From NCBI GenBank assembly GCA_903813345.2, contig CAIIXF020000005.1:4619375-4683374 (forward strand): 64,000 nucleotides of DNA, written 5' to 3'. Below the pieces are notes generated by a model. The model saw nothing but the letters and a program-made list of their open reading frames with translations. It had not been told where the DNA came from and searched no databases. Each line of letters opens with the position of its first letter. The stretch's first letter is position 1. Shown here piece after piece: positions 155-57,904 of the stretch. Source of the DNA: Owenia fusiformis (lineage: Eukaryota; Annelida; Polychaeta; Sabellida; Oweniidae). The position numbers and the translations under genes were made by a program.

Positions 155-481
155 CTGAAATGGCGACAGCTAATGTAATGACATGTATTCATAAATGCAA
201 TGCCGGAGTCGTTGATAGTTATTTTTCATTTGCAAATGTTTTCTTTTTTGACAAAAATACTCATCAGTTCCCTATAAACTTTATCTATCACACATGGTCT
301 AATTGAATATGTAAATATTGTAAATTATTTGATAATAATACCAATAAATCGGTCTGATTTCACTTGCGAAGAATGTTTTTAGAAAAATTGTAATATCTAA
401 TTTAACTGAGTTTCCGAAAGTTATAATATTATCATAAGTTTGATTTTAAAATTGCTTACAATAGATATTTTTGAAAATTAC

Positions 482-12084: not shown

Positions 12085-12975
12085 GATCTTATTGACTGAA
12101 TCACCAATTGACCCAGTTGTCTTTGATTTTATTGAATCACCAATTGACCCAGTTGTCTTTGATTTTACGGAATCCCGAATTGACCCAATTGTCTATCATT
12201 GACTGAATCACCAATTGACCCAGTTGTCTATCATTGACTGAATCACCAATTGATCCAGTTGTTAATCATTGACTGAATCACCAATTGACCCAGTTGTTAA
12301 TCATTGACTGAATCACCAATTGACCCAGTTGTCTATCATTGACTGAATCACCAATTGACCCAGTTGTTAATCATTGACTGAATCACCAATTGACCCAGTT
12401 GTTTATCTTTGACCGAATCCCCAATTGACCCAGTTGTTTATCATTGACCGAATCCCGAATTGACTCAGTTATCTATCATTTTACTGAATCACCAATTGAC
12501 CCAGTTGTTAATCATTGACTGAATCACCCATTGACCCAGTTGTTTATCATTGACCGAATCCCCAATTGACCCAGTTGTTTATCATTGACCGAATCCCGAA
12601 TTGACCCAGTTGTTAATCATTGACTGAATCACCAATTGACCCATTTGTTTATCATTTGACCGAATCCCGAATTGACACAGTTGTTAATCATTGACTGAAT
12701 CACCGTTTGACCCATTTGTGTATCATTTTACTGAATCACCAATTGATCAAGTTGTCTATCGTTTGACTGAATCACCAATTGATCAAGTTGTCTATCGTTT
12801 GACTGAATCACCAATTGACCAAGTTGTCTATCATTTTACTGAATCACCAATTGACCCAGTTGTTAATCATTGACTGAATCACCAATTGACCCATTTGTTT
12901 ATCATTTGACCGAATCACCGTTTGACCCAGTTGTCTATCATTTGACCGAATCATCATTTGGCCCAATTGTCTATT
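12085..12975. repeat. 35-36 bp minisatellite, about 25 copies
   Basis: Head-to-tail units centred on TGAATCACCAATTGACCCAG followed by TTGTYWATCATTGAC. Variants alternate (GTTAATC, GTCTATC, GTTTATC; ACTGAATCACC against ACCGAATCCCG), so the array is diverged and not freshly expanded. It lies between the stop codons of two convergent genes. A short open frame inside it (12691-12873) is only the repeat. Confidence 0.95.
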
Positions 12976-13128
12976 ATTTAAGACATGTACTAAAATCATA
13001 TATTTAGAGCAAAACGTACACTTGATCCAATTCGATATACATGTGTCATTATATCAATTCAAAGTTAGGAACATCCCAGTTTCTCAAAATGCCATATAAC
13101 ATTTATATGATTGCCTTGTCGTAGCCGG

Positions 13129-16100
13129 TTATTCCCGTCTTTCACGTGGAGATTGTTCTTGGAATTCCTCAGACAAATATAGTGTCCTCATTCTATTGAT
13201 TTCCTTCTGTTGAGTTTTAGGACTAAAAACAACGTCGAAAGGATATTCAATGATTTCTTGTGATTCTTCCGAATCGAAATGAAGGTCATCATCATCATTG
13301 TATGATCTACTTGATGTTTGTGGAGACGTCTGTGATCGATCGAATTCGGTGGGCTTGACATTACTATATGTAGACATATTTGGTTGAATACCTTCATCAC
13401 TGGCGCGTTGCTGCATCATTGTATTGTTTTTCTTATGTAACGCATTACTATCTAAAGATGAGCTGTCTTGATGGCTCTTGTCACCGCATTCCACGGGGGA
13501 TTTGTTTTTTTTGTTCTTTTCCTCAATCAAAGTTGGCGTTAAATCTGCTGCAGACATAGGAGTTATCGTCGTGTTTTTGCCTTTAGATGGAAGACCAGAC
13601 ACACTATCGTTAGAATCGGAATCTTCTGTGAGGCTAATCAGTGGTCCTTGTACAAAAACAGGTTTACGTAAAACATCTTTAAAAGCAGGGTTGTTTTCAA
13701 TAGGATCATCTACGTTGGAAAAGAATTTCAAAGGCCGTGGTTTGGTTCTAACTTTTTTTATTTTTCCTTGTTTGGTAAACTCTGCAATTTCTTCATCTAG
13801 TTTTTCTTCCTCACTTTCCCTAGCTCTTTTATTTCCTTCTTTCATTGGTTCAACCTCTTGCATTTCCAATGCCCTTTCTCTTTCTAACTCTTTTAGTTTC
13901 TTCTTTTGCTCTTCTTCAAGCTTCTTGTCTTGAATTCGCTTTTCCTCTTGTTTTCTCAGTTGAACTTGTCTCTCTCTTTCTTTATCTGCTCTCCTCATTT
14001 CCTCCCTCAAAGCCAGTTGTCGTCTTTCTTCTTCATCTTCTACTTCTTGATTTTTTCTTCTTTGTTTTTCTCGTCTCTTCTTTTCAATTTCTTTCTTTTC
14101 TTTCTCAGCTTGTTGTTTCTTTTCTTCTTGCCGCTGCTTGTTTGCATTACGCATTCTCTCAACCTCAAGTGCAAGTTCTCTACCTCTTACACGGCGTTCT
14201 TCTTCTTCCTTCTTTTTGATATCAGCTTCTTCAGCCAGTCTCTTTTGTTTTACTTCTTGTTGTTGTTTCTTCAACTCTTCCGTTCCTTCCTGTTTTTCCT
14301 TCTCTTTCTCCAATAATGTTTGTTTTAATTCATCCAAACGTTTCTGCCTATCTTGCTCACGTTTTTTTCTTGACTCAACTTCACATTTTCGTCGGTGTTC
14401 CTCTAATTTTCTGTTTTCTATCTCTGCCTTTTCTTTCTCTGTTGCAAGTTTCTCAGTCTCTTCTTTTTTAACTCTTTCTTCAGGGTTTTTCTTTTCTTGT
14501 TGAATTTCTTTAACTTTCTGAACCTCTTCACCTTTCTGCTTTTTCATAAGATTTTGCTCTTCCTCGGTATTCTGCTTTTCTTTTAATTTCTGTTCCTCTT
14601 CAGCTTTCTGCTTTTCCTTTAATTTGCATTCCTCATCGGCTTTCTGCTTTTCCTTTAATTTGCGTTCCTCATTGGCTTTCTGTTTTTCTTTTAATTTGCG
14701 TTCCTCTTCAGCTTTCTGCGTTTCCTCTAACTTTCGTTCCTCATCGGCTTTCTGCTTTTCTTTCAATTTTCGTTCCTCTTCAGCATTCTGCTTTTCCTTT
14801 AATTTTCGTTCCTCTTCAGCTTTCTGCTTTTCCTTTAATTTGCATTCCTCATCGGCTTTCTGCTTTTCCTTTAATTTTCGTTCCTCTTCAGCTTTCTGCT
14901 TTTCCTTTAATGTGCGTTCCTCATCAGCTTTCTGCTTTTCCTTTAATTTGCGTTCCTCATCAGCTTTCTGCTTTTCCTTCAATGTGCGTTCCTCATCAGC
15001 TTTCTGCTTTTCCTTTAATTTTCGTTCCTCATCGGCTTTCTGCTTTTCCTTAAATGTGCGTTCCTCATCAGCTTTCTGATTTTCCTCTAATTTTCGTTCC
15101 TCATCAACTTTTTTCTTTTCCTTTAATTTTCGTTCCTCTTCGGCTTTCTGACTTTCCTTTAATTTGCGTTCCTCATCGGCTTTCAGCTTTTCCTTTAATT
15201 TTCGTTCTTCATCGGCTTTCTGACTTTCCTTTAATTTGCGTTCCTCATCGGCTTTCTGCTTTTCCTTTAATTTTCGTTCTTTATCGGCTTTCTGACTTTC
15301 CTTTAATTTGCGTTCCTCATCGGCTTTCTGAATTTCCTTTAATTTGCGTTCCGCATCGGCTTTCTGCTTTTCCTTTAATTTGTGTTCCTCTTCAGCTTTC
15401 TGCTTTTCTTTTAATTTTCGTTCCTCATCAGCTTTCTGCTTTTCTTTTAATTTGCGTTCCTCTTCAGCTTTCTGCTTTTCCTTTAATTTGCGTTCCTCAT
15501 CGGCTTTCTGCTTTTCCTTTAATTTTCGTTCCTCATCGGCTTTCTGCTTTTCCTTTAATTTTCGTTCCTCTTCAGCTTTCTGCTTTTCCTTTAATTTGCA
15601 TTCCTCATCGGCTTTCTGCTTTTCCTTTAATTTTCGTTCCTCATCGGCTTTCTGCTTTTCCTTTAATTTTCGTTCCTCTTCAGCTTTCTGCTTTTCCTTT
15701 AATTTGCGTTCCTCATCGGCTTTCTGCCTTTCCTTTAATTTTCGTTCCTCATCGGCTTTCTGCTTTTCCTTTAATTTTCGTTCCTCATCAGCTTTCTGCT
15801 TTTCCTTTAATTTGCGTTCCTCTTCAGCTTTCTGCTTTTCCTTTAATTTGCGTTCCTCATCGGCTTTCTGCTTTTCCTTTAATTTTCGTTCCTCATCGGC
15901 TTTCTGCTTTTCCTTTAATTTGCGTTCCTCATCGGCTTTCTGCTTTTCTTTTAATTTACATTCCTCTTCAGCTTTCTGCTTTTCCTTTAATTTTCGTTCC
16001 TCATCAGCATTCTGCTTTTCCTTTAATTTGCATTCCTCACCGGCTTTCTGCTTTTCCTTTAATTTTCGTTCTTCTTCAGCTTTCTGCTTTTCCTTTAATT

Positions 16101-18171
16101 TGCGTTCCTCTTCAGCTTTCTGCTTTTCTTTTAATTTTCGTTCCTCATCAGCTTTCTGCTTTTCTTTTAATTTGCGTTCCTCATCAGCTTTCTGCTTTTC
16201 CTTTAATTTTCGTTCCTCATCGGCTTTCTGCTTTTCCTTTAATTTGCGTTCCTCATCAGCTTTCTGCTTTTCCTTTAATTTTCGTTCCTCATCAGCTTTC
16301 TGATTTTCCTTTAATTTGCGTTCCTCATCAGTTTTCTGCTTTTCTTTTAATTTTCGTTCTTCATCAGCTTTCTGCTTTTCCTTTAATTTACGTGCCTCAT
16401 CGGCTTTATGCTTTTCCTTTAATATTCTTTTATCTAATATCTTTTTGTTGTAGGCTACTCTCTGTTTTCTACGAATTTCATAAATATTGTCATAATCGTC
16501 GTCTAGTAGTATTTCACCTTCTTCGTTATCACATGTCTTGAGGTAATCACCTTTGCTCTCATTAGGAATCATACTTCCAAAAGATGTGTTTTTCTTCAAT
16601 ATGGACTTTACGCCAGTTGTTACCCTGTGATCCTTCATTTCCTCAATTTCGAGTTTATCATTTTTCAATTTCATTTGTTGTTCTCTCAAGTCCCTTTGTT
16701 TTGCTTCAATCTCCAAGTTCTTATTTTTGAATTCCATTTCTTTCGAATTCATTTCAAGACCTTTCTTATTGAACTCCAACTCCATTGCATTCATATCCTG
16801 CAATTTCTTTTTCAATTCATTTGCTTCTGTATCAATATCTTGGCATCTCACTTTCAATTCCATTTCTTTCATACCAATCTCATGGCCCTTCGTTTTGTAT
16901 TTCATCTCTTTTTCCAAAAATTGAGCATAGATTTTTCGGGCTTTCTTTTCAAGCTCCAACTCCCTCCTTTTGTTCATTTCTTCAATATCTTCTTCATGTT
17001 GTTGTTGTTCCCTTTTTAGCTTTTCTAACTTAAGTTTTTCATCCTTTAGTTGTGCTTGGTCCATATTTTTTATCTTATCACTAGATGCCAGTAATACCTT
17101 TTTCATTTCAATCGCCTTCTTTTCAAATTCAAGTTCTGTTCTATCAGATATGGCCTTTGAAGTCTCTTCACTCAGCTCTTCTCGCATTTTTTCAAGTCGT
17201 TTATTCTCAGTCTCCATAATCTTCTTACTGACCTCAAGAGAATCCTTTTTTGCCTTCAGAATATCTTCATCGTGTCTATGTTTCATCTCCAGGCATGCAT
17301 CTATCGTGAGGTAGTTTAATTCTTTCTGTTCAATCACTGTATCTTTGGCCAGTTGCACCAATTCATTTGTTACATCAATCTTGGGTGGAGATGGCGCCGT
17401 TATATCTAATGTCATATGTTTCAATTCATTTTGCAGTTCGCCTAATTGAGATTGTATTCGTTCTTCTTGTTTCCAAAACAAATCATAGAGCACTGCTGTA
17501 CTAGGAGAGGTGGCTTCTGTTTCATTTGGAAGTGCCAGTGTCTCATCTTTTAATTCCACGTTCTTTTTAAAAGAAGATTCTTTCATTACATCGTTTAAGA
17601 GAACGTCATCATGTATAACACGATTCCGCTCGGGTATTACATCGTTATTGCCAGTTCTCATCTGCTGGGAAGACATGCTATCAGCATAGGGGATGTCTCT
17701 CTCAGGTGTAAACCTTCCATATTTGTGTATAACAGGTGCATAGATTATGTCACCTGAGACATGCCAATTGGAATTAGAATAAGTACCAGGTCTAAGCTCA
17801 TCGAGACGATCAAAGTCTATTCCGCCAAACAATTCATTTTGAAATTCCTTGCTGCATTTGTAACTTGATTCATCAAGCGAATGATTATTTGGCGTATGGG
17901 TTAACGGTTGCTTTAAGTCCTCATAGCAGTCAGGAATTTCTTTCTCGAACTGTACATGTTCTAGCTCTTCATACTTTCCTTTCAATGATCCTTCCACGTA
18001 ATCATAAACGTCGTCCGGGATTGTAATTTTAAGATGTAATTCTTCAGACGACTTGCCAAGATGCTGTTTGCTCATTGGATAGTCATCAAAGAGAGTACGG
18101 GGACGGGGGTAGTCTAGTGCATGCATCATGTCAGCAGTGTCGAAATGATCAAGCCTCTCATCAAAACATAG
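13129..18171 (-). CDS. Repeat-rich charged helical protein, exon 5 (main exon)
   Basis: I do not recognise the protein. This exon supplies residues 122-1801 of the assembled product. In order: an acidic N-terminal part; a K/E-rich helix with coiled-coil character at about 350-665; about 52 copies of a 12-residue unit, typically KLKEKQKADEER, at about 698-1328; more K/E/R-rich helix to about 1590; then a disordered S/T/D-rich tail ending SPRERRE. A 12-residue period matches neither a heptad nor a hendecad, and the alternating K/E suggests a long single alpha helix or charged rod. No membrane span or signal peptide is seen. The frame stays open upstream of its first Met (18129) to an acceptor TTTTAACAG, and the added 14 codons (LCFDERLDHFDTAD) resemble the following protein, so I start the exon at 18171. 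It joins exon 4 in phase 0. A basic stretch KKVRTKPRP near residue 1595 could be a nuclear signal. Confidence 0.9.
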   Translation of the reverse strand, partial: LCFDERLDHFDTADMMHALDYPRPRTLFDDYPMSKQHLGKSSEELHLKITIPDDVYDYVEGSLKGKYEELEHVQFEKEIPDCYEDLKQPLTHTPNNHSLDESSYKCSKEFQNELFGGIDFDRLDELRPGTYSNSNWHVSGDIIYAPVIHKYGRFTPERDIPYADSMSSQQMRTGNNDVIPERNRVIHDDVLLNDVMKESSFKKNVELKDETLALPNETEATSPSTAVLYDLFWKQEERIQSQLGELQNELKHMTLDITAPSPPKIDVTNELVQLAKDTVIEQKELNYLTIDACLEMKHRHDEDILKAKKDSLEVSKKIMETENKRLEKMREELSEETSKAISDRTELEFEKKAIEMKKVLLASSDKIKNMDQAQLKDEKLKLEKLKREQQQHEEDIEEMNKRRELELEKKARKIYAQFLEKEMKYKTKGHEIGMKEMELKVRCQDIDTEANELKKKLQDMNAMELEFNKKGLEMNSKEMEFKNKNLEIEAKQRDLREQQMKLKNDKLEIEEMKDHRVTTGVKSILKKNTSFGSMIPNESKGDYLKTCDNEEGEILLDDDYDNIYEIRRKQRVAYNKKILDKRILKEKHKADEARKLKEKQKADEERKLKEKQKTDEERKLKENQKADEERKLKEKQKADEERKLKEKQKADEERKLKEKQKADEERKLKEKQKADEERKLKEKQKAEEERKLKEKQKAEEERKLKEKQKAGEECKLKEKQNADEERKLKEKQKAEEECKLKEKQKADEERKLKEKQKADEERKLKEKQKADEERKLKEKQKAEEERKLKEKQKADEERKLKEKQKADEERKLKERQKADEERKLKEKQKAEEERKLKEKQKADEERKLKEKQKADEECKLKEKQKAEEERKLKEKQKADEERKLKEKQKADEERKLKEKQKAEEERKLKEKQKADEERKLKEKQKAEEEHKLKEKQKADAERKLKEIQKADEERKLKESQKADKERKLKEKQKADEERKLKESQKADEERKLKEKLKADEERKLKESQKAEEERKLKEKKKVDEERKLEENQKADEERTFKEKQKADEERKLKEKQKADEERTLKEKQKADEERKLKEKQKADEERTLKEKQKAEEERKLKEKQKADEECKLKEKQKAEEERKLKEKQNAEEERKLKEKQKADEERKLEETQKAEEERKLKEKQKANEERKLKEKQKADEECKLKEKQKAEEEQKLKEKQNTEEEQNLMKKQKGEEVQKVKEIQQEKKNPEERVKKEETEKLATEKEKAEIENRKLEEHRRKCEVESRKKREQDRQKRLDELKQTLLEKEKEKQEGTEELKKQQQEVKQKRLAEEADIKKKEEEERRVRGRELALEVERMRNANKQRQEEKKQQAEKEKKEIEKKRREKQRRKNQEVEDEEERRQLALREEMRRADKERERQVQLRKQEEKRIQDKKLEEEQKKKLKELERERALEMQEVEPMKEGNKRARESEEEKLDEEIAEFTKQGKIKKVRTKPRPLKFFSNVDDPIENNPAFKDVLRKPVFVQGPLISLTEDSDSNDSVSGLPSKGKNTTITPMSAADLTPTLIEEKNKKNKSPVECGDKSHQDSSSLDSNALHKKNNTMMQQRASDEGIQPNMSTYSNVKPTEFDRSQTSPQTSSRSYNDDDDLHFDSEESQEIIEYPFDVVFSPKTQQKEINRMRTLYLSEEFQEQSPRERRE
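14540..16435 (-). repeat. 36 bp coding minisatellite in exon 5
   Basis: About 52 units of 36 bp keep the frame intact. Differences cluster at fixed places (plus strand TTTGCG or TTTTCG; CATCGGC, CATCAGC or CTTCAGC), giving D/E and K/R-neutral changes. Units are also ordered in threes (108 bp). Blocks 15421-15540 and 15781-15900 are almost identical, showing higher-order duplication of about 360 bp. Because the unit is a multiple of 3 and has no stop in several frames, long antisense open frames appear here and are not genes. Confidence 0.96.
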
Positions 18172-18289: not shown

Positions 18290-19990
18290 ATTGGCAGGAT
18301 ACGCAAGACAATGATAAGCTCAAGGAATGTGGTGTTCAATGAGGAAATGAAGATCAATATTCAGCTCTGGTTGTCTGGTTTTTAATTAGAATACTAGCAT
18401 AGTTTTCAATGAAGAGATACAAGGTCAATACTAAGCTCTGGTTGTTCTGGTATTCAATGAAGAGACGAAGGTCAATGTTCAGTTCTGGTAGTCTAGTATT
18501 CAATAAGAAAATGAAAGGTTAATGTTCAGCTCTGGTAGTCTGGTATTTAATGAGGAGATGAAAGGACAATATTCAGCTTAGGTAGTTCTGTATTCAATGG
18601 GGAGATGAAAGGTCAATGTTCAGGTCTGGTAGTCTGGTATTCAATGAGGAAATGAAAGGTCAATGTTCAGTTCTGGTAGTCTGGTATTTAATGAGGAGAT
18701 GAAAGGACAATATTCAGCTTAGGTAGTTCTGTATTCAATGAGGAAATGAAAGGTCAATGTTCAGCTCTGGTAGTCTGGTATTCAATGAGGAGACGAAAGG
18801 TCAATGTTCAGCTCTGGTAGTCTGGTATTCAATGAGGAGACGAAAGGTCAATGTTCAGTTCTGGTAATCTGGTATTCAATGAGGAGATGCAAGGTCAATG
18901 TTCAGCTCTGGTAGTCTGGTATTCAATGAGGAGAAGAAAGGTCAATGTTCAGTTCTGGTAGTCTGGTATTCAATGAGGAGACGAAGGTCAATGTTCAGCT
19001 CTGGTAGTCTGGTATTCAATGGGGAGATGAAAGGTCAATGTTCAGCTCTGGTAGTCTGGTATTCAATGAGGACATGAAAGGTCAATGTTCAGTTCTGGTT
19101 GACTGGTATTCAATGGGGAGATGAAGGGTCAATGTTCAGTTCTGGTATTCAATGAGGAGATGCAAGGTCAATCTTCAGCTCTGGTAGTCTATCTGGTATT
19201 CAATGAGGAGATGAAAGGTCAATGTTCAGTTCTGGTTGACTGGTATTCAATGAGGAGATGCAACGTCAATGTTCAGCTCTGGTAGTTCTGGTATTCAATG
19301 AGGAGATGCAAGGTCAATGTTCAGTTCTGGTTGACTGGTATTCAACGAGGAGACGAAGGTCAATGTTCAGTTCTGGTAGTCTGGTATTCAATGAGGAGAT
19401 GAAAGGTCAATGTTCAGTTCTGGTTGACTGGTATTCAATGGGGAGATGAAGGGTCAATGTTCAGTTCTGGTATTCAATGAGGAGATGCAAGGTCAATGTT
19501 CAGCTCTGGTAGTCTATCTGGTATTCAATGAGGAGATGCAACGTCAATGTTCAGTTCTGGTTGACTGGTATTCAATGAGGAGATGAAAGGTCAATGTTCA
19601 GTTCTGGTAGTTCTGGTATTCAATGAGGAGATGCAAGGTCAATGTTCAGTTCTGGTTGACTGGTATTCAATGGGGAAACGAAGGTCAATGTTCAGTTCTG
19701 GTACTTCTAGTATCCAATGTGGAGATGAAAGTATTCAATGTGGAGATGAAAGGTCAATGTTCAGTTCTGGTAATCTGGTATTCAATGAGGAGATGAAATG
19801 TCAATGTTCAGCTCTGGTAGTCTAGTATTCAATGAGGAGATGAAAGGTCAATGTTCAGTTCTGGTTGACTGGTAATCTGGTATTCAATGGGGAGACGAAG
19901 GTCAATGTTCAGCTCTGGTAGGCTTGTATTTAATATCAATGAGGAGATAAAAGGTCAATGGTAGGCTCAGGTATTCAATGTGAAGATGAG
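18290..19990. repeat. 47 bp minisatellite, about 35 copies, in intron 4
   Basis: Units centre on GGTCAATGTTCAGTTCTGGT, then AGTCTGGTATTCAATGAGGAGATGAAA. Copies vary by short deletions (missing AGTCT; GTTGACTGG in place of GTAGTCTGG). It fills almost the whole intron between exons 4 (20119) and 5 (18171). Reading frames at 19258-19449 and 19583-19825 are repeat artefacts. Confidence 0.95.
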
Positions 19991-20118: not shown

Positions 20119-20173
20119 ACCTTCACCCATCACATAATAGCCCCCTACTTGGCTTCCAAGCTCTCTATATATC
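20119..20173 (-). CDS. Repeat-rich charged protein, exon 4
   Basis: A 55-base exon reading IYRELGSQVGGYYVMGEG (after completing an Arg codon). The acceptor is TTTTAG|G at 20175-20174 and the donor is GAAGGT|GTAAGT at 20118. It enters in phase 2 from exon 3 and leaves in phase 0 into exon 5, so the frame is kept on both sides, which is the main evidence. No homolog is recognised. Confidence 0.8.
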
Positions 20174-20716: not shown

Positions 20717-20828
20717 CTCCTTAGTTCCCTTGTATACTCAAGAGAGTATGAATCCTTTTCCTCTCTTGTTTTACATACTTTCATCAACATTGGGTAAACG
20801 TACGTTGTTATATCCATAATATCCGGGT
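20717..20828 (-). CDS. Repeat-rich charged protein, exon 3
   Basis: A 112-base exon reading PDIMDITTYVYPMLMKVCK, then TREEKDSYSLEYTRELR. It is bounded by TTGTAG at 20830-20829 and GGAG|GTGAGT at 20716. It starts in phase 1 (T|AC gives Tyr66) and ends in phase 2 (AG|G gives Arg103), matching its neighbours exactly. With exon 2 it forms a compact, mostly helical N-terminal region of about 100 residues that I cannot assign to a family. Confidence 0.83.
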
Positions 20829-21232: not shown

Positions 21233-22141
21233 TCATTTACTCCGTAGTCCGTTCCATACTCTTGATAGTTCTACTTTTATTGACTTTTCACCAAATTTGT
21301 TTTTAAACATACATAAACGTAGACGGTCTTTATTTCTCGTTTCATGGTCATGTGTATCAGCATTTGTAGAATAGACTTGTTGATGTGGAAACTTGTCAGG
21401 TTTATTCATAATTTGGTATGCAAAGTTGGCAACATTGAAGTTGAATATGTTATAAATATTTAAGATTCTAAGATCTTTCAATAAAGGGGCGGCATGAGCT
21501 AACTTACTAGAATTTCTTATTAACCTGGCAAATTTCTTCGGGAGTATATGCAGAGGCTCGAGGAGTTTTTTTTATCAGCATTACCCCAAATTATATTACA
21601 GTAATCAAGCCCCGAATGAATAACAGCATTTTTTCGAACATTTGTCAAGTAAATGCTTAGAAGTATATAATATGTGTATAATTTTAGCTATCTTCCCTTT
21701 TAGTTTTTGAGTGTGAAGTTTCCAATTTAGTTCGTCATCGATTAGGACACCAAGAAAATTAATGTTATCATTCCTTGTAATATTTTTGTCATCAATTGTT
21801 ATCTTGATTTCTGCAGGGCTATACGTTCCTTTTTTAAGTGAAAAGAATAAAAAAATAGTCTTTTCAATATTAAGCGATAACTTGTTAGCCATGAACCAGT
21901 CATTGACTTTTTTAAGTTCATTATTTGCAACAGATATGAGTTCTTCTTTCGACTCATTTGAATGTAAAATACTGGTGTCATCTGCAAAAAGTACAAACTT
22001 CAATATAGCAGAAGTAAAACTGAGGTCATTTATGTAAATGTTAAAAAGTAGGGGTCCTAGGATAGACCCTTGGGGTACTCCACATGAAATAGTTGTTGGG
22101 ATAGAGAGAAAAAAGTGAAAAGTCAAAAATGAACATATCAA
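21233..22141 (-). pseudogene. LINE (Jockey/CR1-like) reverse transcriptase fragment
   Basis: Two frames carry the 3' half of a non-LTR retrotransposon polymerase. The first (21605-22141) has GVPQGSILGPLLFNIYINDL, the catalytic FADDTS box and VNDWFMANKLSLNIEKT; the second (21233-21481, continuing the same protein) has HDHETRNKDRLR and ends SRVWNGLRSK. They are split by a frameshift near 21600, and the 5' part is missing, so it is a 5'-truncated dead copy. It lies in intron 2 of the repeat-protein gene, same strand. Confidence 0.92.
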
Positions 22142-22495: not shown

Positions 22496-22814
22496 AATCA
22501 AACCTACATCAAAGTTTTCGCTTCAAATCAGTTCATAGTGACACCGTACACCTAAAGTGTACGACGGTATATCTTGTCACTGTACGTTGTGAGGCGTGAA
22601 ACTTGGAAGGTTATACATTATGGATGAAATTTGTGAGAGGGAAATGTTTCTGTATTGATGAATCTTGGAAGGTGGACTATATATTTCGACATGGATGAAA
22701 CTTTAAAGAGGGATACATTTCAATATAGAATGTGTGGTATATAGAATATATGGAATACATTTAGATTAATCTTGGAAGGGGAATACATTTCGGTTGAGAT
22801 GAATCTTGGAAGGG

Positions 22815-23225
22815 GATGCCTTTCAGTATAGATCAACCTTGGAGGGGGTGCATGTCAGTATATAGATCAGTCTTGGAGGGGGTGCATGTCAGTATATAGA
22901 TCAGTCTTGGAGGGGGTGCATGTCAGTATATAGATCAGTCTTGGAGGGGGTGCATGTCAGTATATAGATCAGTCTTGGAGGGGGTGCATGTCAGTATATA
23001 GATCAGTCTTGGAGGGGGTGCATGTCAGTATATAGATCAGTCTTGGAGGGGGTGCATGTCAGTATATAGATCAGTCTTGGAGGGGGTGCATGTCAGTATA
23101 TAGATCAGTCTTGGAGGGGGTGCATGTCAGTATATAGATCAGTCTTGGAGGGGGTGCATGTCAGTATATAGATCAGTCTTGGAGGGGGTGCATGTCAGTA
23201 TATAGATCAGTCTTGGAGGGGGTGC
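22815..23225. repeat. 34 bp minisatellite, about 11 near-identical copies, in intron 2
   Basis: Perfect or near-perfect head-to-tail units of GATCAGTCTTGGAGGGGGTG plus CATGTCAGTATATA run from about 22858 to 23220. Diverged relatives of the same unit (TTGGAAG...ATACATTTC...) flank it on both sides, from 22600 and to about 23300. The array stops about 90 bases from the exon 2 donor. There are no spacers, so it is not CRISPR-like. Confidence 0.96.
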
Positions 23226-23312
23226 ATATCGGTATGGATGTAACTGGGCTACGATTTTGTATAGATGAATCTTGGAAGAGGGTACATTTCATTAGGATGA
23301 ATGTTCACTTAC

Positions 23313-23440
23313 AATCGTTTGCATCAATTGTCTTTTTTCTGAATCTACGCCAGTTGACACTGATGAAGCTTTCCTGATCGGGTGTAGCGTAGCTGATGTT
23401 TCGCCATTCCCGGAATGCGTCTTCTAAACACTCAACGTAC
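23313..23440 (-). CDS. Repeat-rich charged protein, exon 2 (first common exon)
   Basis: A 128-base exon reading YVECLEDAFREWRNISYATP, then DQESFISVNWRRFRKKTIDAND. The acceptor is TTGCTGCAG at 23441 and the donor is GATT|GTAAGT at 23312. It starts in phase 2; the AG ending any of the three upstream first exons plus its G gives Arg. It ends in phase 1 into exon 3. The regular aromatic and charged spacing suggests a folded helical domain. I recognise no family. Confidence 0.83.
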
Positions 23441-24411: not shown

Positions 24412-24476
24412 CTTGAAATTATCCGTCTCTGTTCATCTCTTCGCATGAGAAGAAACGATCTATTCACTTGAAACAT
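24412..24476 (-). CDS. Alternative first exon A of the repeat-rich protein gene
   Basis: It reads MFQVNRSFLLMRRDEQRRIIS and exits through CAAG|GTAATG at 24411. It ends in the same phase 2 as exons B and C and aligns with them over SFL...RR.E....RII. The ATG at 24476 is preferred to the one at 24446 because the upstream residues align with B and C. It would join exon 2 directly. It is the nearest cassette to exon 2 and the most diverged of the three. Confidence 0.7.
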
Positions 24477-24538
24477 GATATTTTGTGAAAATCTCCTTGG
24501 AAAATCGTATCCCAGATCAGATGAATATTGCTAAGAAG

Positions 24539-24680
24539 CGAATATAAACAAAACTGTATCTATGACGTAATCATAATGAAGAGGAATTACTAAACAATGC
24601 ATTTTCTGGAAACAATGTGGTTGATTGGGAAATTAATATGACGTCACTAGAACAAGAAGGGCATAACACGAATGACGTGT
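24539..24680 (-). promoter_or_regulatory. Promoter A with CRE-type sites
   Basis: Upstream of exon A lie TGACGTAA (24563-24570), an inverted CCAAT box (ATTGG at 24624-24628, so CCAAT on the gene strand), a perfect palindromic CRE TGACGTCA (24639-24646) and a half-type TGACGTGT (24673-24680). The first, the CCAAT region and the perfect CRE are in the same order as in promoters B and C. ATF/CREB-family factors are known to bind such sites; use here is inferred. Confidence 0.65.
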
Positions 24681-24839
24681 CCAGGTGTAACATTCAATTT
24701 TTTTCGTGGAAAAACAAACAAACACTAAAGTCGGACTTGCTCTACAAGTACACTGATTGTGCTCCGACTATATCCAATTTTGACACGCAGTTTTAATGCG
24801 TTTTCACTCATATAGCCTATGCCTTGACACCTGAATAAT

Positions 24840-25105
24840 TTGATATTTACGAAAAATACCATGGAAATTGTCAATAATTTCTTAATATTCAATTTTTAAA
24901 TATGGTTCTTCTCGGGCAAAATAAACCACCTCATGCAATGGCTTTTGTTATCAAGATAATTTTGGACCCCGGAGCATGATATTTACGAAAATCCCATTGA
25001 AATTATCAATAATTTCTTAATATTCAATTTTTAAATATGTTTCTTCTCGGGCAAAATAAACCATCTCATGCAATGGCTTTTGTTATCAAGACGTGTCATC
25101 ACAAA
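24840..25105. repeat. Tandem duplication, period about 138 bp
   Basis: The block from TGATATTTACGAAAAA to TTTTGTTATCAAGA (24840-24957) is repeated from 24978 to about 25092, with few differences (for example ACCATGG against CCCATTG). It lies upstream of promoter A and has no coding function. Confidence 0.9.
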
Positions 25106-25989
25106 CTTCGTTTCATATTGGAACAATCGCTTGTATAAATGATTTTTTATGTTTGGAATTATACAACACATTTCAAAACGTTTTGATCATCTCATAGAAA
25201 ACCATCCTTCGGATTATGGGACATTTGTGCCGTTTTCAATAACTTCGTATTTGATCAGACTTGGCTTCCAATAAAACTCGCGCAAAAGTATTGTATCGGG
25301 TCATTTATTTTGTTCCAGATGAAGCAGATTGTGCGAAACAATTTATATATCTTAGTAAAAATCATGCTCTGAGTCTTGAAAATATGACGATCCCACTAAT
25401 CATTTGAAGTCCATGGTAAGTCTGATATAGTAAGTTGGGGCACAACGTTGTGTATTGCCTAACTTTCGTAAAGAGACAAAAGAGGAGGGGCTCACCAAAG
25501 TTTTAGAGATAACAGACATAACTGCGTCTCTTGCTTAAGCTTACTACTTTCGTTTGTTCGAATTTTCACCGACGAGTTTCTAAATACTTCTTCGATGCGA
25601 TGTTTTAATTGATGTAGGCATATTCAATACACCTTTCTTTATCTTGATGTGAAATAAGACGCTATGATATTCGTTAACAAGTCATAAATGAACATAATAT
25701 TATTCGAAGCGTATTTCGAAAGTTTTGAGGCTACCATTTTTTGTTGAATTTTGACCAATCAGAGACAGGTTTACATCAAGGATATATCATCTTTGAACTC
25801 TGGGATTTATCCCTCTGGGAGACAAGTTAGGTTTGATGTTGCTGCCATCTTTCTATGCAATGTCAAGTCATAATGCTTTCTAAAATACTTTTGTAAAGGC
25901 ATAGTATGTTTACCGCAGAGTCGGGACGGAGCCTGGTATTTAATTGCCGGCCAAGTTCTAAACAATTAAATGGGGTTGACTGAACAAAC
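25106..25989. other. Intron DNA between first exons A and B, no gene seen
   Basis: I find no exon or recognisable element. It includes diverse short inverted patches and the start of G-rich sequence near 25920. Confidence 0.5.
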
Positions 25990-27795
25990 CAGGCCCGTAA
26001 GACACTTTTCTCCAAGGGGGGTGCGGTTTTTAGCTTACTAAAGAGAATGTAAAATTGTCAATTTTTTTACCGCGTCAAATCGCGTAAGACAGAGAGGGGG
26101 GGGGGGGGGTCAGTTACTCCCTATATTGGTTTGGAATTAACAAATGCAACTTCCAAACGTTCCAATTGTTTTGTGGGGGGTGTGAGGAGTAGTCCACTCC
26201 CCCTAGAAAATTTTACAGTTTTGAGATGCTATTTGGTGCTTTCTGGGCACTTTCAAAGTGTAAGTTTCTAAGTAGTACGCCACCACCACAAGAATAAGAG
26301 TTGAGTGAATAAAAAACCGAACATTCTGGGGGGTCTGGGGAAAATTTTGAAATTTGGTTGTATTTGGAGCGACTTTGCAACCATCTGGTACGCCTGTGCG
26401 TTATGAGTCAATAAGAAAAATGTGAATTTTTTTCAAATTCTTTTGGGGGTGTCAAAGAGGATGAGAGGGTGAAGTGGGGTGGGGTGCCAGTAGGGGAGCA
26501 AGGGGTTGTCCCCCAGAAACATTGACCATATCAAGGTGCTATTTGATGATGTCTGGGCACTTAAAAAATGTCTGAGACAATACATGAAATTCAGAATATT
26601 TTATTTTGTTTTGTGGGGGATGTGAGGGGTGGCTAACTCTCCTAGAAAATTTTACAATTTAGAGATGATATTTGGTGCTTCTGGGCACTTTTAAAGGTAT
26701 TAGTCAATAAAAACATTGAAAAACAATCACAATTTTTTTCAAATTTTGGGGGTGTCAAAGGGGGGGGGGGGGGGGAGGGGTGCCAGAGGGGGGGGGGGGG
26801 GTGGGGCTGTTGTGCCAGAGGGGGAGCAAGTGTTTGTCCCCCATATCAAAATTTACAACATCAAGGTGCTATTCGATGAAGTTTGGGCACTTTAAAAGTG
26901 TCTGTGCCTAAAAGCGCATATTTCCCAAGAAAATGTTACAATTTTAAGATGCTATTTGGTGCTTTCTGGGCACTTTCAAAATGTACGAGTCAATAAAAAG
27001 ATTTGAAAAATCTCAATTTTTTATTTTTTTTTTGGGGGGGTGTTAAGGGGGGGGGGGGGGCTGCCAGAGGGGGGGGGGGGGGGTGGAGTGGGGATGCCAG
27101 AGGGCGAGTAAGTGTTAGTCTTCCAGAATCATTAACTTTATCAAGGAGCTATTTGATGATGTTTGGGCAATTTAAAAGTGTCCGAGACAATACATAAAAC
27201 AAATTCAGAACTTTTTCATTGTTTTGTTTGGGGAGTGAGGGGTGGCCCACTCCCCCTAAGAAATTTTACAATTTTACGACGCTATTTGGTGCTTTCTGGG
27301 CATTTTCAAATTGTATGAGTCAATTAAAGAATTTGAGAAAATCACAATTTTTTTAAATTTTTTTTTTTGGGGGGGGGGGGGGGTCAAGGGGGGGGGGGCG
27401 CCAGAGGGGGGGGGGAGGTTGTGCAAGATGCAAGAGGGCAAGTCCAAGATGCAAGAGGGCAAGTCCCCCAGAAACACTAACTATATCAAGGAGCTATTTG
27501 ATGATGTCTGGGCACTTTAAAAGTGTCTGAGACAAAACACTAAAATAAATTTAGAACTTTTCCATTGTTTTGTGGGGGGTGTGAGGGGTGGCCAATACCC
27601 CTAGAAAATTTTACACTTTTAAGATGCTATTTGGCGCTTTCTGGGTACTTTCAAAGTATATGAGTCAATGAAAAAAAATTACAAGAAAAAATATTTTTCA
27701 AAAAAAAAATTTTTTTAATTTTTTTTTTCAAATTTATTTTGGGGGTAACAAAGGGGGGTGCGGTCGCACCCATCGCACCCCCCCCCATCTGACGG
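25990..27795. repeat. G-tract-rich tandem repeat array, units of about 280-440 bp
   Basis: A unit recurs at least five times, marked by GATGCTATTTGGTGCTTTCT (near 26229, 26949, 27625, with variants near 26665 and 27283) and by TATTTGATGATGTCTGGGCA (near 26540, 27150, 27500, with a variant near 26870). Each carries runs of 8-18 G on the plus strand (for example 26096-26109, 26760-26778, 27047-27060, 27365-27383). The ends carry GGCCCGTAAGACACTTTTC and a related inverse near 27785, suggesting an amplified mobile element. The G runs could form quadruplexes on this strand, which is the template strand for the gene. Confidence 0.85.
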
Positions 27796-27943
27796 CCCTG
27801 CAAACCTTTTTTATTGAAATTCAAATAAAACATGTAAATGGATCTCAGGCCCTAGCATCCTTCGACCAAGAACTCCAAGATCCAGTTTTATATGTCTCTG
27901 TTTAGATATATTTATTCCATTGAGAATTATATGTTGTTCTTAC

Positions 27944-28011
27944 CTTTCGATAATTCGTATCTTTTCTTCACGTCTTAAGCGGAGGAAAGATCCATCCCTT
28001 AGTAAATTCAT
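27944..28011 (-). CDS. Alternative first exon B of the repeat-rich protein gene
   Basis: It reads MNLLRDGSFLRLRREEKIR plus IIE and exits through GAAAG|GTAAGAAC at 27943. It aligns with exon C nearly residue for residue (MN....DGSFLR..REEK.RI.ER), and the first 25 bases of intron are also conserved with C. The coding bases keep the frame and the splice site, which argues for selection. Confidence 0.75.
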
Positions 28012-28104
28012 GATGTTTGATATGATTAGAAGTCCATGGTTTGACAAAAGATTTGATAATTCTGTCGAAATCTGATCTCCTCGAATATCGTTTTAGAAAT
28101 GTTG

Positions 28105-28220
28105 CTAGGTTGCAAACAAACACAAAGTTGAACTATGACGTAATTGAATAAACAGCAATAAGAGTACAATGTTTTTCACGGAAAGCAGGTTGATTGGATA
28201 CAAACATGACGTCACTCAAT
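28105..28220 (-). promoter_or_regulatory. Promoter B with CRE-type sites
   Basis: TGACGTAA lies at 28136-28143, an inverted CCAAT (ATTGG) at 28193-28197 and a perfect CRE TGACGTCA at 28207-28214. The order and strand match promoters A and C, with the two CRE-type sites 71 bases apart (76 in A, 82 in C). The intervening sequence is diverged, so the sites are preserved better than their surroundings. Confidence 0.68.
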
Positions 28221-28537
28221 TAATAATGTTGTTCTTTGTTACGATTCTAATATGATAAACAGACAAGAAAAACAAATATTTGCATTTATGAATCTTAGTG
28301 GGCATACATACTCCAATATAGACCAATAAATCAATTGTTCACGTATCATATTAGAATAGAAATTCTAAGAACAATTTGCTTCAGTATGTCTGGTGCATTA
28401 TTTCTATTATTTGTTACCGCTCCCGCATAACTATGTGAACAGGAATGTACACAAGATCTTGCATTTTCATTCAATTTTCAATTTCAATTTCAATTGAATT
28501 TGATAGTCTATTTCATAATTTCTTCAAAAGCTTAGAT

Positions 28538-29308
28538 CACGCGGTACTAACTCACCGGGGCGTATCGAAAACGCCCCGCAAAACCGTTAATTTGAATTTC
28601 AAACCTACCCTTTCTTTGGAAAATCAATGATTGTGAGTCTCACAGTACACCGTTTTTCTTCAAACTTGTTCCATTAAAACCAGACATTGCTTTTGTTTAC
28701 AAAGTCCCTCGTTTTAGCGGCGTTTTGGTCCCCAGATGTGAGAAGATGCAAATCTTCAGAGATTTCAACCAAAAGTCTCGATATATTGCCAGTTCTTTTA
28801 TTATTCTCCCCTATATTTTGCACAAGGACCCCCATTACAACCCTCCATCTCTGCATCAACATATTTATTACATTAAATGCAGCAATTTCCAAAAGTCCTA
28901 CGCATTTGTTCGAAATTGATCAAAACGCCCCGTCCTCTTTCAAAACGCCCCATTGGATCTATACACCTTATCTAGATACTGACTGGACTGCGGGGCGTTT
29001 TGGAAGACAACAAGGCGTTTTGGTCAATTTCGAACAGTTGCGTAGGATTTTTCAAGGTTGCTGCGTTTCAACTTCTCACATCTGGGGACCAAAAACGCCG
29101 CTAAAACGAGGGACTTTGTAAACAAAAGCAATGCCCCGACTGAAAGGTATTTCTGTGAAGGTTTTAATGGAACAAGTTTGAAGAAAAACGGTGTAGTGTG
29201 AGACTCACAATCATTGATTTTCCAAAGACAGGGTAGATTTGAAATTCAAATTAACGGTTTTGCGGGGCGTTTTGGTTTCGATATGCCCCGGTGAGTTAGT
29301 ACCGCGTG
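28538..29308. mobile_element. Palindromic fold-back element between promoter B and exon C
   Basis: The arms begin CACGCGGTACTAACTCACCG and match inverted for about 370 bases to near the centre (about 28920). They include AATCAATGATTGTGAGTCTC, CAAACTTGTTCCATTAAAAC and AGTCCCTCGTTTTAGCGGCG. The element is flanked by GAT on both sides (28535-28537 and 29309-29311), a possible 3 bp target duplication. The centre is rich in AAAACGCCCCG motifs. No transposase is encoded. A diverged relative lies at 62520-62730. Confidence 0.9.
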
Positions 29309-29868
29309 GATGTACAATCATTGGAACAGCAGTAAATCTTACACCTTCATCGCCATGCGAAATTGGCGACGAGATCAGTACCCGGGGATCCGTAAATTTT
29401 GCAAAGGCTGTTTTGCCATAATTATGTTTCCAGAATATTTTCCAGAAATCGAACATGATCTGTAGTTATAACGATCGTAAGAGTGAAATAGTTTTCGCAC
29501 TACTGATGAGAAAACATGTCCAAATATATTTATCAAAAGATTATATTGATTCCTTTAGGTTAAAAATACCATTTCATATCTGCTTTAATGTCAATGACGA
29601 AGAGTGATTTTCAGAAATTCCTAAAATATTGCCACCTTTGTGCCATTTACCATTGTAATTGTAAAAGGAACTAGTAATTTACATTATTGGATTGAAGGAA
29701 TCAATGTCTCATATTGTCACAAAATGGAGGCAATATTCCTGTTACAAGATGGCGACATTGCGAAAACCATAGAGTAAAGATATGAATATCGGCGCAGACA
29801 AGATCACCAAATGACAGGCCGGCTGTGTAGATATGTCTATCCCAATGAGAACTATAAGTTGTTCTTAC

Positions 29869-29936
29869 CTTTCGGTAATTCGTTTCTTTTCTTCACGCTT
29901 CGGGCGAAGGAAAGATCCATCCGTTTGTGAATTCAT
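29869..29936 (-). CDS. Alternative first exon C (most distal) of the repeat-rich protein gene
   Basis: It reads MNSQTDGSFLRPKREEKKRI plus TE and exits through GAAAG|GTAAGAAC at 29868, again phase 2. Downstream intron sequence near 29749 (ATGGCGACATTGCGAAAACC) matches sequence downstream of exon A near 24303, showing the duplicated unit reaches over 100 bp into the intron. Use with exon 2 requires a 6.4 kb intron. Confidence 0.75.
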
Positions 29937-29997
29937 TATTATTGCCACAAGATTTGATAATCTATTATCACGAATGTTTGTCTCTAGAATTATTGCC

Positions 29998-30125
29998 ATG
30001 TAGCGAATAAAAACAAAAAGTCGTAACTATGACGTAATCACATGAACAATGACAGAACAATGTGTTTTCAGAAAGTTTAAGATTTCAACATCGGTTGGCT
30101 AGATACACATATGACGTCACTCAAC
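29998..30125 (-). promoter_or_regulatory. Promoter C with CRE-type sites
   Basis: TGACGTAA (30030-30037) and a perfect CRE TGACGTCA (30112-30119) lie upstream of exon C. The CCAAT position is degenerate here (GGTTGGCTAG near 30093). It is the third member of the promoter set. Confidence 0.65.
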
Positions 30126-33732: not shown

Positions 33733-35462
33733 TTACAAAAGACGTTGCAATGCTTTCTGCGCTGCAATGATATCCGGGTGCTCAACGTTGCCGTGTATTT
33801 CTTTGAATATTGCCAAAGCTTCTTCAAAGCAAATTTTGGCATCTTCGTGTTTTGAACGTCCATACTCAAAGTACACCTCTCCTAAATTTCGGAGCGTCTT
33901 GCCTACACTGGAATTGGGACGATTCTGAGCCAACGTTCTCCTGGTTCTTAACGCCTTGCTGAGATATTCAGTAGCTTCTCCATACTGTTTCAGCATCTTC
34001 AATGTGTTCCCCATGTTGTTGCAAAGTTTGGCTGTATCGCCATGGTCATTGCCGAAGATACGGAGATACATATTATACGATCTATTTTGGTAGTCAAAGG
34101 CCTGGTCCCAGTCTCTCATGGAATAGTACAAACTGCCAATATTATTCAATGATGCAGCTACCTGTTCAGCATCTTTCCCTTTACTCATTTTCCGGCTAAT
34201 CTGGTATGACTTTTCGTAGCATTTAAGCGTATGATAATAATCGCGGTCTTTCCTGTATGCCATGCCAAGCGTGTTGAACGCAGTACACATTGCATTCATG
34301 CACGCTTCATCCTCGTTTGGTGAACGGGAATCAACATCATCCGATATATCGGTTGGATTTTCGAATTCAGATACAGTTTGTTTTAGAACATCAATCGCAT
34401 ATTGATTGTTGCCCTTTGCCATGGCAATTGATCCCAGAAGTGAACTGATCTTTACACCAGCAACTGATATTCTAAGCTTGATGTCAGTTACCTCCCGTTT
34501 TGCAAAGTTTTGTAGAATTACCCGGGCTCCTTTAGCTTTTTGAAATGCCATATCATATTTGTCCATCTTGGTAAGTAATCTTCCAATATTGCATTTCACA
34601 TCACAAATGCTAAGAGTGTCTTCGAGACCAGCCGTGGCTGTATTATAACGCTCTTCAAGCTCATGCTCTGCTTGCTCAAAAGAAGCTAATGCATTTCCAA
34701 GAAATTGCATGTTTTGATGCAAGTTTCCTTTTACCATGGCATTGTTGTCAAAGAATCTCGGCCAGAATCTGAAAGATGATTTTTCCTGTTTCACGCGTTC
34801 TATATCTATCGTCAGAAAATCCACAAGAGGTCGTAAAGTGTAATAAAAGCGATAGATGGCACTGTAGTCTCGGACAGAAAATGTTAGGGAGTCCGAGGTG
34901 TTACTCTGTTGGATAAATGATATGTCATCACTCTGCCTGTTCTTTTTGGAGTACACGATGTGGCGGAGGTTTGTTGCGATGCAAATCATTAAGGCGAGGT
35001 CATCTCTAGCTTCTTTGGACAGCACCTCATTGGCGACAAGAGTATCAAGGATCTCCAAACCACTGGATTCAGCTAAACCGTACATCAGTTTTAAAGTATT
35101 CACGGTCATTGTTGCGAATCTATAGACATCTTTCTTTGCATGCAGCTGGCGACTTAGGGAATATGGTGTGAAAGGCGACGCATTAAAAGTGTCTAAATCA
35201 CCTTTGAATGACGCTAAAGCTCGAACTTGACCAACCGTGAATGCTGGATCTACTTTAGAAGGTTGTGTGATGATATGGGAAACTCTGGTTTGATAGTCAT
35301 GCAAAAGCTGGATGTTGCCATGCAAGAGTGTAGCAGAGAGTAAGACGTCTGAGAGATGGTAGCCCTCAGCTAATGATCGATCGTCATGCTGTAAAGCTGC
35401 CATGTCTTCTGGAGTCATAATCAACTCAAGAGCTTCATTGTGGCTTTCTGTAGCTTTGCGTC
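33733..35462 (-). CDS. Nucleotidyltransferase-TPR protein, exon 3: substrate-binding-like domain and TPRs
   Basis: This exon carries residues 320-894. The first part (about 340-520, with RQLHAKKDVYRFATMTVNTL, LMYGL and ATNLRHIVYSKK) resembles the helical C-terminal domain that follows the catalytic module in DUF294-type nucleotidyltransferases. The last 190 residues contain four TPR units of the kinesin-light-chain type, for example AFNTLGMAYRKDRDYYHTL, SLNNIGSLYYSMRDWDQAF, LCNNMGNTLKMLKQYGEATE and TLRNLGEVYFEYG. Acceptor CTTTCAG at 35463, phase 1, completing Gly319. TPRs bind other proteins; the partner is unknown. The gene ends at TAA about 90 bases before a MITE. Confidence 0.93.
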
Positions 35463-35600
35463 CTGAAAGATAAACAACAGAATCAAAAGTAAACACGAGA
35501 AACATGCGCCAAGAGGGCCTTATATTAAATGGTCAGGGGGTAATGCGAAATTCGATACTAACATTTTAAAACATTGTCCCGTAATAATTTCAAGTCTTAC

Positions 35601-36503
35601 CGGCTGGAAATTTACTTGCCCAAGGCATTCTACCGTCGAAGCAGATCCCCCGGGGCGTAACGTTATCATAGTAGCCTCTCTCTGAGCTCTTGCCCTGTAG
35701 CTCTTTGTACCAATCATTTAGATACGGAATACCAAGTGAGGGCAGAATCGTTTCTCCGATATTTAAGATTTTCAGGTGGTAATAGTGATGTAGTACTCTG
35801 AAGTATTCTTTACATTGCTCCTGATTGGGTAAGGGTTCTATGAGAATGGCCCATTCTAGATCAGACCAAGGAGTCGATTCTTTACGTGCCACCGAACCAA
35901 GGGCAAGTATTGCATATTGACACGGGGGTGGCCCCAGAACTTTTATACAATCATCAAACAAGCCTGTAAAAAACTTCACCATGTTATCATGAATGAGTTC
36001 GTAATAATCTTTGGATCGTTCGATAATCCGTTTTTCCTGATCTTTGCCCATGTCACCCGTCTCAATATCTACCTTCATCAGCTGCTGGATATTTGTGGAC
36101 TCATCCTTAGCATTCTCTCTGATTACTTTTAGCTTTTCAATATACCATGCACTGCTATCCGGAATTTCAACATTCAATCCAACAACTTCTTTCAAAAATG
36201 TGGCTTCCACGTTCTTCAACTTTTGGCTAAGTCCAATTTCAGTGTCATTATTTGACTCTTCTTCCATGTGTATGTCTGCGTCTACTGTATCAAGATCACA
36301 CATATTTCCCCGGGCCCTGGCTGCATTATACAGTCCACTTGCATGTGTAAAACATTCCTGGTCGCCGGTGATTATAGCTTCATCCATATAGAGGTCCCCC
36401 ATTTGTCTCATTATTTTCACTTGATCGAGGAGAGGCGGGTCCTGCTTCAAACAACGGGCTAGATCATCTAACTTTCTGCCCCCTGGAGTCATACTCGATT
36501 TAG
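35601..36503 (-). CDS. Nucleotidyltransferase-TPR protein, exon 2: nucleotidyltransferase-like domain
   Basis: This exon gives residues 19-318 and holds the module LGSVARKESTPWSDLEWAIL. It fits the nucleotidyltransferase pattern GS-x10-D-x-E (G220-S221, D232, E234), the type found in DUF294 and GlnD-like proteins, where the acidic pair holds metal ions for nucleotide transfer. The third catalytic acid is not obvious. In animals, TPR proteins with this module form multigene groups of unknown function; a role in stress or innate defence is only a guess. Exon bounds are TTTTTAG|CT at 36505-36504 and GCCG|GTAAGA at 35600. Both phases agree with exons 1 and 3. The first Met of the open frame (36492) is not taken as the start, because the frame runs on to the acceptor. 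Confidence 0.92.
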
Positions 36504-37206
36504 CTAAAAATGAAAAGAAATGAAGGTTTGGGAGGAGTTAGCCTAATAATCTTTAATGCAACAGCTAGTAAGATGGTCAGGAAGTCTATAACTATACAGT
36601 CAAGCCACGAATCTCTTTCACATTTGATCAATGTAAAAGTTGAAAAAATGAAATTTTAGATTGAGATATAAATGCATATACCATTAGCCATGGGGTTTAA
36701 GAAGCGTTTCTCAAAATATTTTTATTACCCTTTAAACAATTACTTGATTGTGCATCAAAACGTAAATATACTCTTAAATTGCTGGTGTCGATGATGGTGT
36801 ATACATAGGCTTACATTGATTCATGTTTCACAATTAATTTTGAGTTTAAAGATAAACTAATGTATCAAGTTTGAAATATTTAATCACATGAATAAAAATA
36901 AATTGCAATAGTTGTTGTTTATCTTAACAAGAGAATTTTATTAAGATGATCGTTGAAATACATTGTTTTGAGTTTCCCTAAAGATAATTAATTTCAAGAT
37001 TTTGTTTTCTAAGCTAAATAATATGCCAAGTCAATTCCTCGATCGACAAAATGAATGTACAAATAAGACACACATGTCTTCTTACATCAAAATACAACAT
37101 TGTTCCGAATAGGTCAATCACTCCTCCTTGTGATATTAAGTGTTATTTAACAGTGTCGCTGATGGTCGCTTAGGTTTTTAAACAATAACGTACATAATTT
37201 ACACAT
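36504..37206 (-). other. Intron 1 of the nucleotidyltransferase-TPR gene, proximal part
   Basis: AT-rich sequence with no exon. A short phrase GTGTCGATGATGGT at about 36784 recurs near 37153, 38667, 38838 and 39028 in degenerate form. Confidence 0.55.
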
Positions 37207-57824: not shown

Positions 57825-57904
57825 CTGAAAAATACATAATGTACATCTTGTATCGAAAAAATGATACAATAGAAACCTTTTTTCTTTGAAAAATTAAGGC
57901 ACTA

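Follow-up and report, generated by a model that had tools for sequence, protein, structure and literature searches.

Tandem promoter/first-exon cassettes, likely to be alternative transcription start units, in a four-gene family of Owenia fusiformis

Results

Three tandem cassettes precede one set of common exons

In the genome assembly of the annelid Owenia fusiformis (GCA_903813345.2), we analysed a 64,000-nt window of contig CAIIXF020000005.1 (forward strand, 4,619,375–4,683,374; positions given below are window positions), which contains a minus-strand gene for a large repetitive protein. Three tandem minus-strand cassettes lie upstream of its common exons, and each consists of TGACGTCA, TTACGTCA, an ATG, a first exon of 65–68 nt and a phase-2 GT donor. 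Judged from the DNA sequence, they are likely to form an array of alternative promoter/first-exon cassettes, in which each cassette would be an alternative transcription start unit, and several lines of evidence point to an array kept by selection. A preliminary description of this DNA had proposed three tandem promoter/first-exon cassettes with preserved sites; the proposal was borne out and now extends to 12 cassettes in four genes. Its coordinates, site spacings and ATG distances were all reproduced exactly by rereading the minus strand and by a TGACGTMA scan for octamers of the cAMP response element (CRE) type. We refer to the window gene as C5, to its two paralogues on contig C8 as C8a and C8b, and to the paralogue on contig C3 as C3.

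The CRE-type octamers are located at 24639 and 24563 (cassette A), 28207 and 28136 (B), and 30112 and 30030 (C), with a spacing of 76, 71 and 82 nt, respectively. The second site reads TTACGTCA on the coding strand and TGACGTAA on the plus strand, and its distance to the ATG (A, 24476; B, 28011; C, 29936) is 87, 125 and 94 nt. GT donors follow after 24412 (A), 27944 (B) and 29869 (C), and the common exon 2 starts at 23440. The first exons are of two types, I and II, which are compared below. The cassette features are as follows.

30112–30119, minus strand: cassette C, upstream CRE TGACGTCA, from the TGACGTMA scan
30030–30037, minus strand: cassette C, downstream CRE-type site TTACGTCA; the same site type occurs in 12/12 cassettes
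29869–29936, minus strand: cassette C, first exon, type II, coding for MNSQTDGSFLRPKREEKKRITE(R), phase-2 donor
28207–28214, minus strand: cassette B, upstream CRE TGACGTCA
28136–28143, minus strand: cassette B, downstream CRE-type site TTACGTCA
27944–28011, minus strand: cassette B, first exon, type II, coding for MNLLRDGSFLRLRREEKIRIIE(R), phase-2 donor
24639–24646, minus strand: cassette A, upstream CRE TGACGTCA
24563–24570, minus strand: cassette A, downstream CRE-type site TTACGTCA
24412–24476, minus strand: cassette A, first exon, type I, coding for MFQVNRSFLLMRRDEQRRIIS(R), phase-2 donor

The window contains 13 matches to TGACGTMA against 2.27 expected, and none of 100 shuffles reached this number (largest, 9); the cassettes account for nine of the 13 rows, with the palindrome counted on both strands. 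Pairwise alignment of the cassettes gave 68% identity for C–B (expectation value, E, 1e-36), 62% for C–A (E 4e-15) and 60% for B–A (E 5e-9). The TGACGTMA excess and these E values rule out a chance origin of the likeness.

The preliminary description had also held that any of the three cassettes can be spliced in frame to exon 2 at 23440, and the full C5 gene model agrees with this: A, B and C can each be joined in frame to one common set of four downstream exons that ends at one stop codon, yielding proteins of 1800, 1801 and 1801 amino acids (aa), with GT/AG at all exon borders. The common exons are listed here.

23313–23440, minus strand: common exon 2, 128 nt, AG acceptor and GTAAGT donor, with 77–80% protein identity at the three paralogous loci
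20717–20828, minus strand: common exon 3, 112 nt
20119–20173, minus strand: common exon 4, 55 nt, with a counterpart at C8a and C3, not located at C8b
13129–18171, minus strand: common exon 5, bulk of the 1800–1801-aa protein, to the stop codon, holding 12-residue KEKQKADEERKL-type repeats

The protein is mostly charged and repetitive, with a 36-bp coding repeat present in 51.5 copies. In Pfam, none of exon 5, exon 2 and the joined N-terminal part matched any family above the cut-off set for that family, and the best match in the PDB to the N-terminal 140–145 residues had an E of 0.4. Matches to stem cell factor (E 0.085 and 0.12), neuroglobin (best E 1.1) and Taf250 (E 0.4) were dropped as noise.

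Two further features lie among the cassettes. A 3-codon upstream open reading frame (ATG GAC TTC TAA, in an ACCATGG context) is present in cassette B at 28011–28050 (minus strand), just before the main ATG; if transcribed, it could reduce translation from B. The DNA separating cassettes B and C contains an imperfect palindrome of 771 bp, a foldback element, at 28538–29308.

The same arrangement is found in four paralogous genes

A search with exon 2 found three paralogues, C8a and C8b, which are about 1.2 Mb apart on contig C8, and C3. The start of exon 5 recovered the same four loci with 52–57% identity, the paralogous open frames being 1523, 1609 and 2564 residues long, and the last part of exon 5 also recovered the paralogues, C3 weakly (E 0.006). 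Exon 3 was found at all four loci. Exon 4 was found at C5, C8a and C3 and was not located at C8b, so that the paralogue gene models are incomplete; exon-2 acceptors in matching phase are present at the three paralogues, and at C5 the frame is established in full from each of the three cassettes.

The single exon-2 match is preceded by three cassettes at C5, four at C8a, two at C8b and three at C3, a total of 12, the nearest lying 1.0–1.8 kb from exon 2 at all four loci and the farthest 22.8 kb. Genome scans with exon-1 patterns, allowing up to three mismatches, returned exactly nine type I and three type II exons, and the controls returned none. A profile built from the 12 rows and run over 202 kb with default filters recovered the same 12, followed by five matches of at most 5.2 bits, and under these settings no decayed cassette was detected. 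A mobile element is not favoured, in that in the scans made cassettes occurred only upstream of the four exon-2 copies. In two respects the loci match the structural class of the multiple variable first exon gene: tandem homologous first exons stand before one common exon set, and each first exon carries a phase-compatible GT donor (12/12).

The 5′ part of exon 3 has been multiplied in tandem as well, with 12 extra pieces at C8a, eight at C8b, 15 at C3 and none at C5. The arrays, in which each piece is an acceptor followed by about 24–57 nt of exon, lie near the complete exon 3 at these positions.

C8a, 35329.0–35330.7 kb: partial exon-3 array
C8b, 36506.9–36507.7 kb: partial exon-3 array
C3, 12078.3–12080.6 kb: partial exon-3 array

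Since exon-3 pieces were multiplied at three loci, tandem duplication is common in this family; none of these pieces is complete, whereas all 12 cassettes are whole.

A shared promoter-like block

The downstream site TTACGTCA is present in 12/12 cassettes; no invariant run in the promoter segment is longer, and 15 of 20,000 column shuffles equalled it. A CRE octamer near the start, a feature of cAMP-responsive promoters, is likewise present. CATTGT occurs in 11/12 cassettes, starting 25–29 nt before the second CRE in ten of them and 35 nt before it in one, and AGCAAY in 10/12, starting 31–39 nt after the start of the second CRE. The composite CATTGT-TTACGTCA-AGCAAY had nine matches in the genome, all of them in cassettes, whereas the reversed control had 0 and 1. 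By itself, the CRE pair is no rarity (94 genome matches vs 54 for the reversed control, with cassettes making up 10 of the 94), and we rejected it as a general promoter signature, the excess being only 1.7-fold and many matches being repeats of each other. The sequence CCTAG|CAA before the ATG was considered as a splice acceptor and is not favoured: cassette C has ATGGCAA, which lacks AG, and no more than about 30 bp lies between this sequence and the CRE.

The CATTGT block is SOX-like and the TAGCAA block RFX X-box-like. When the X-box consensus RYYNYY N1-3 RRNRAC (PMC2375033) was sought in the leader, it was exact in 2/12 cassettes (C3_2 and C3_3, reverse strand) and in none of the other ten. 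A looser X-box scoring beat 300/300 shuffles; the best windows were not the same element across cassettes, and the result remains a lead. A link between SOX30, CREM and RFX2 appears in an account of the mouse (PMC5732304). As a lead only, the combination of CRE, CATTGT and TAGCAA suggests expression in ciliated or sperm-forming cells.

Two types of first exon

A maximum-likelihood tree divided the cassettes into nine of type I (MFRASGSFLLMRRDEQRRIIS-like) and three of type II (MNLQAGGSFPRLRREEKRRIIE-like); this division has 100% support and is marked by a long branch, and on this basis the two first-exon types have long been separate. Type II is present at C5 and C8a and lies upstream of type I at both. 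C5_B groups with C8a_1 (76%) rather than with its neighbour C5_C; the pair of type II cassettes is therefore probably older than the separation of the C5 and C8a loci. The three C3 cassettes group at 99%, and the remaining type I groupings have 25–63%.

Within one locus, type I peptides differ at 0–1 of 21 residues (the three at C3 are identical, those at C8a differ at 0 or 1 and those at C8b at 1). Among the three type II peptides, which belong to two loci, 5–8 of 22 residues differ, including 7/22 between B and C. The preliminary description saw the cassettes as putative interchangeable, cAMP- or stress-responsive starts; interchangeability would suit the type I copies within a locus better than it suits the array as a whole, because the two types have long been separate and the type II peptides differ mutually.

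Evidence for selection

The ATG, open frame and GT donor are intact in 12/12 cassettes, and the donor sequence AAGGTAA is invariant in all of them. When the type I exon was evolved neutrally on the tree of cassettes, with assumed base frequencies and kappa and with branch lengths taken from the cassettes themselves, a mean of 2.0 of nine exons remained intact and all nine did so in 0 of 20,000 runs; with branches halved, all nine were intact in 0.24%. Mean type I identity between loci was 0.89 for the exon, 0.74 for the leader, 0.69 for the promoter block and 0.59 for the first 110 nt of the intron. Parsimony on the tree assigned 11 synonymous changes and 10 nonsynonymous ones to type I, with p = 0.003 and a ratio of about 0.27. 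Pooled pairwise ratios were 0.36 and 0.34.

Cassettes matched each other in 65 of 66 pairs, the exception being C5_C with C8b_2; the matches start 114–267 nt before the ATG and end 73–398 nt after it, and in 34 of the 36 type I pairs homology starts no more than 20 nt from the position of the upstream CRE. Between loci, alignable DNA consists mainly of exons, minisatellites and cassettes, together with some other stretches. The selection suggested in the preliminary description held up when tested on 12 cassettes in four genes, but the B–C pair by itself shows little protein constraint. With 7.5 nonsynonymous and 3.5 synonymous substitutions, B and C differ mostly by changes that alter amino acids, so this pair is weak evidence for protein selection, and the paralogues are the stronger evidence.

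Surroundings of the gene

Minisatellites lie 3′ of the gene and in its introns (12091–12978, 18405–19960 and 22797–23235) and recur at the paralogues; C5 12899–11839, for example, has 81% DNA identity with C8a. Intron 2 contains a reverse transcriptase fragment (21605–22141, minus strand). Elsewhere in the window, frames at 33733–36537 (minus strand) match TPR repeats and a DUF294 nucleotidyltransferase, and further matches are to a homeodomain (446–682, minus strand), a rhodopsin-type G-protein-coupled receptor (10458–11771, plus strand) and a nuclear receptor ligand-binding domain (57247–57990, minus strand). A match to a transposase helix-turn-helix (1747–2022, plus strand) is weak and under its cut-off.

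Discussion

According to the reading we favour, a cassette would comprise a compact promoter-like block 150–200 bp before the ATG, a short leader, the ATG and a first exon with 21–22 full codons. The block usually holds two CRE-type sites together with CATTGT and TAGCAA-like blocks, the distances between them varying little. Transcription would start in each cassette, presumably with CREB/ATF-type factors bound to the CREs. Whichever cassette it came from, the RNA would be spliced from the phase-2 donor of that cassette to the single exon 2 and would encode one and the same rod-like protein, apart from small differences at the N-terminus. The choice of cassette may be made by cell type or stage.

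Several points weigh against this reading or limit the evidence for it. TGACGTCA is exact at the homologous upstream place in only 8/12 cassettes; in two C3 cassettes the site at that place is altered and an exact copy stands 9 bp further upstream, so that an exact TGACGTCA upstream of TTACGTCA is present in 10/12, and C3_1 and C8a_1 are without it. The column shuffles were made on segments anchored on TTACGTCA itself, and the neutral simulation depends on the settings given above. For type II, with 7 synonymous and 12 nonsynonymous changes, the synonymous excess falls short of significance (p = 0.10). One alignment between C5 and C8a, at 60% overall, extends from cassette A across intron 1 and exon 2 and ends in intron 2, and part of the similarity may therefore be residual. 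Gene conversion could also help to keep the copies alike.

Taken further, conversion from one selected copy might keep all copies intact, each copy not being itself selected. The C3 exons, identical or one synonymous change apart, and the 99% grouping of the three C3 cassettes are what this would produce; yet the same cassettes are only 82–87% identical over whole alignments, and C5_B groups with C8a_1 of another contig instead of C5_C, though only at 76%. We consider this explanation quite improbable. Still less probable, in our judgement, is that each gene has one working start, likely the cassette 1.0–1.8 kb from exon 2, and that the others are unselected tandem duplicates at a duplication-prone locus. 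A cassette does lie at that distance at 4/4 loci, and the family does duplicate fragments, as the 12, 8 and 15 extra partial copies of exon 3 at three loci attest, but unselected duplicates are hard to reconcile with 12/12 intact cassettes against a neutral mean of 2.0/9, with the lack of decayed cassettes in the 202-kb profile search, and with distal type II cassettes at two loci that are probably older than the separation of those loci.

Conserved CRE-type sites and a conserved composite block could be expected of distributed enhancers serving one promoter, with the open frames as by-products. We give this very little credence: in type I the exon is the most conserved part (0.89 vs 0.69 for the promoter block), the nonsynonymous rate is low, and the AAGGTAA donor is invariant in 12/12 cassettes. 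A different proposal concerns origin and is compatible with the present use proposed here, namely that the array is a remnant of tandem whole-gene duplications whose upstream copies lost exons 2–5. Two whole-gene paralogues 1.2 Mb apart on one contig lend it some support, but no exon-2 remnant was found between cassettes (one match per locus at E up to 10), and the main cassette homology stops 73–398 nt past the ATG; we regard such an origin as unlikely.

The closest known arrangements to this array of start cassettes would be, by analogy, the UGT1-type clusters, the clustered protocadherins and the chelicerate sDscam genes. Vertebrate UGT1 has tandem first exons that are joined singly to common exons and undergo lineage-specific duplication (PMC1885805), each with its own promoter (PMC3325998). 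The tandem first-exon array before common downstream exons is shared with the Owenia genes. Unlike the latter, UGT1 has a variable exon that encodes a large N-terminal domain, and its array diversifies protein specificity; here the exon encodes 21–22 residues, and type I copies within one locus share them entirely or almost entirely. In the chelicerate sDscam genes, tandem 5′ cassettes, each with a promoter, are spliced to constant exons, and the promoter activity of the two cassettes of sDscam-beta6 was measured by reporter (PMC4835542). That family, too, is an invertebrate one with members carrying tandem 5′ cassettes, the present genes having promoter-like blocks by sequence; sDscam cassettes generally comprise two or four exons coding for immunoglobulin domains, in contrast to the one tiny exon found here. 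Clustered protocadherins have a promoter upstream of each variable first exon, which is spliced to common exons (PMC1885805, PMC4835542). The likeness lies in a first exon with its own upstream block, here promoter-like by sequence, and in the common exons; the difference is that protocadherin variable exons are large and number over a dozen in an alpha or gamma cluster, against 2–4 cassettes of 21–22 codons with a different promoter block here. Pfam gave no sign of homology to UGT1, protocadherin or sDscam proteins, and the N-terminal PDB search was also without support for it. Among the papers listed in searches on tandem first-exon arrays, no title or opening of an abstract concerned this gene family, whose protein has no name to search by.

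Because the peptides encoded by type I copies within a locus are identical or almost so, the most likely use of those copies would be in multiplying or diversifying promoters, whereas the type II copies, together with the division between the two types, would add N-terminal variants. A broader view, which we put forward tentatively as possible but doubtful, is that the family repeatedly multiplies the promoter and not the protein: type I would have expanded to 2–3 copies in three of the four genes, and the fourth would have multiplied type II with variant N-termini. At the expanded loci, the N-termini of the type I copies differ by one residue at most, and all copies found are intact. The tandem first-exon arrays compared above (UGT1, protocadherins and sDscam) diversify proteins, whereas the type I array would mainly multiply promoters. 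The near-constant type I peptides would separate a promoter role from a coding role, with type II beside type I as older, diverging variants in the same genes, and arrays of near-identical promoters may be kept for dose, timing or cell type. If the promoter-multiplying view is true, the array would serve output or control from one stage to the next.

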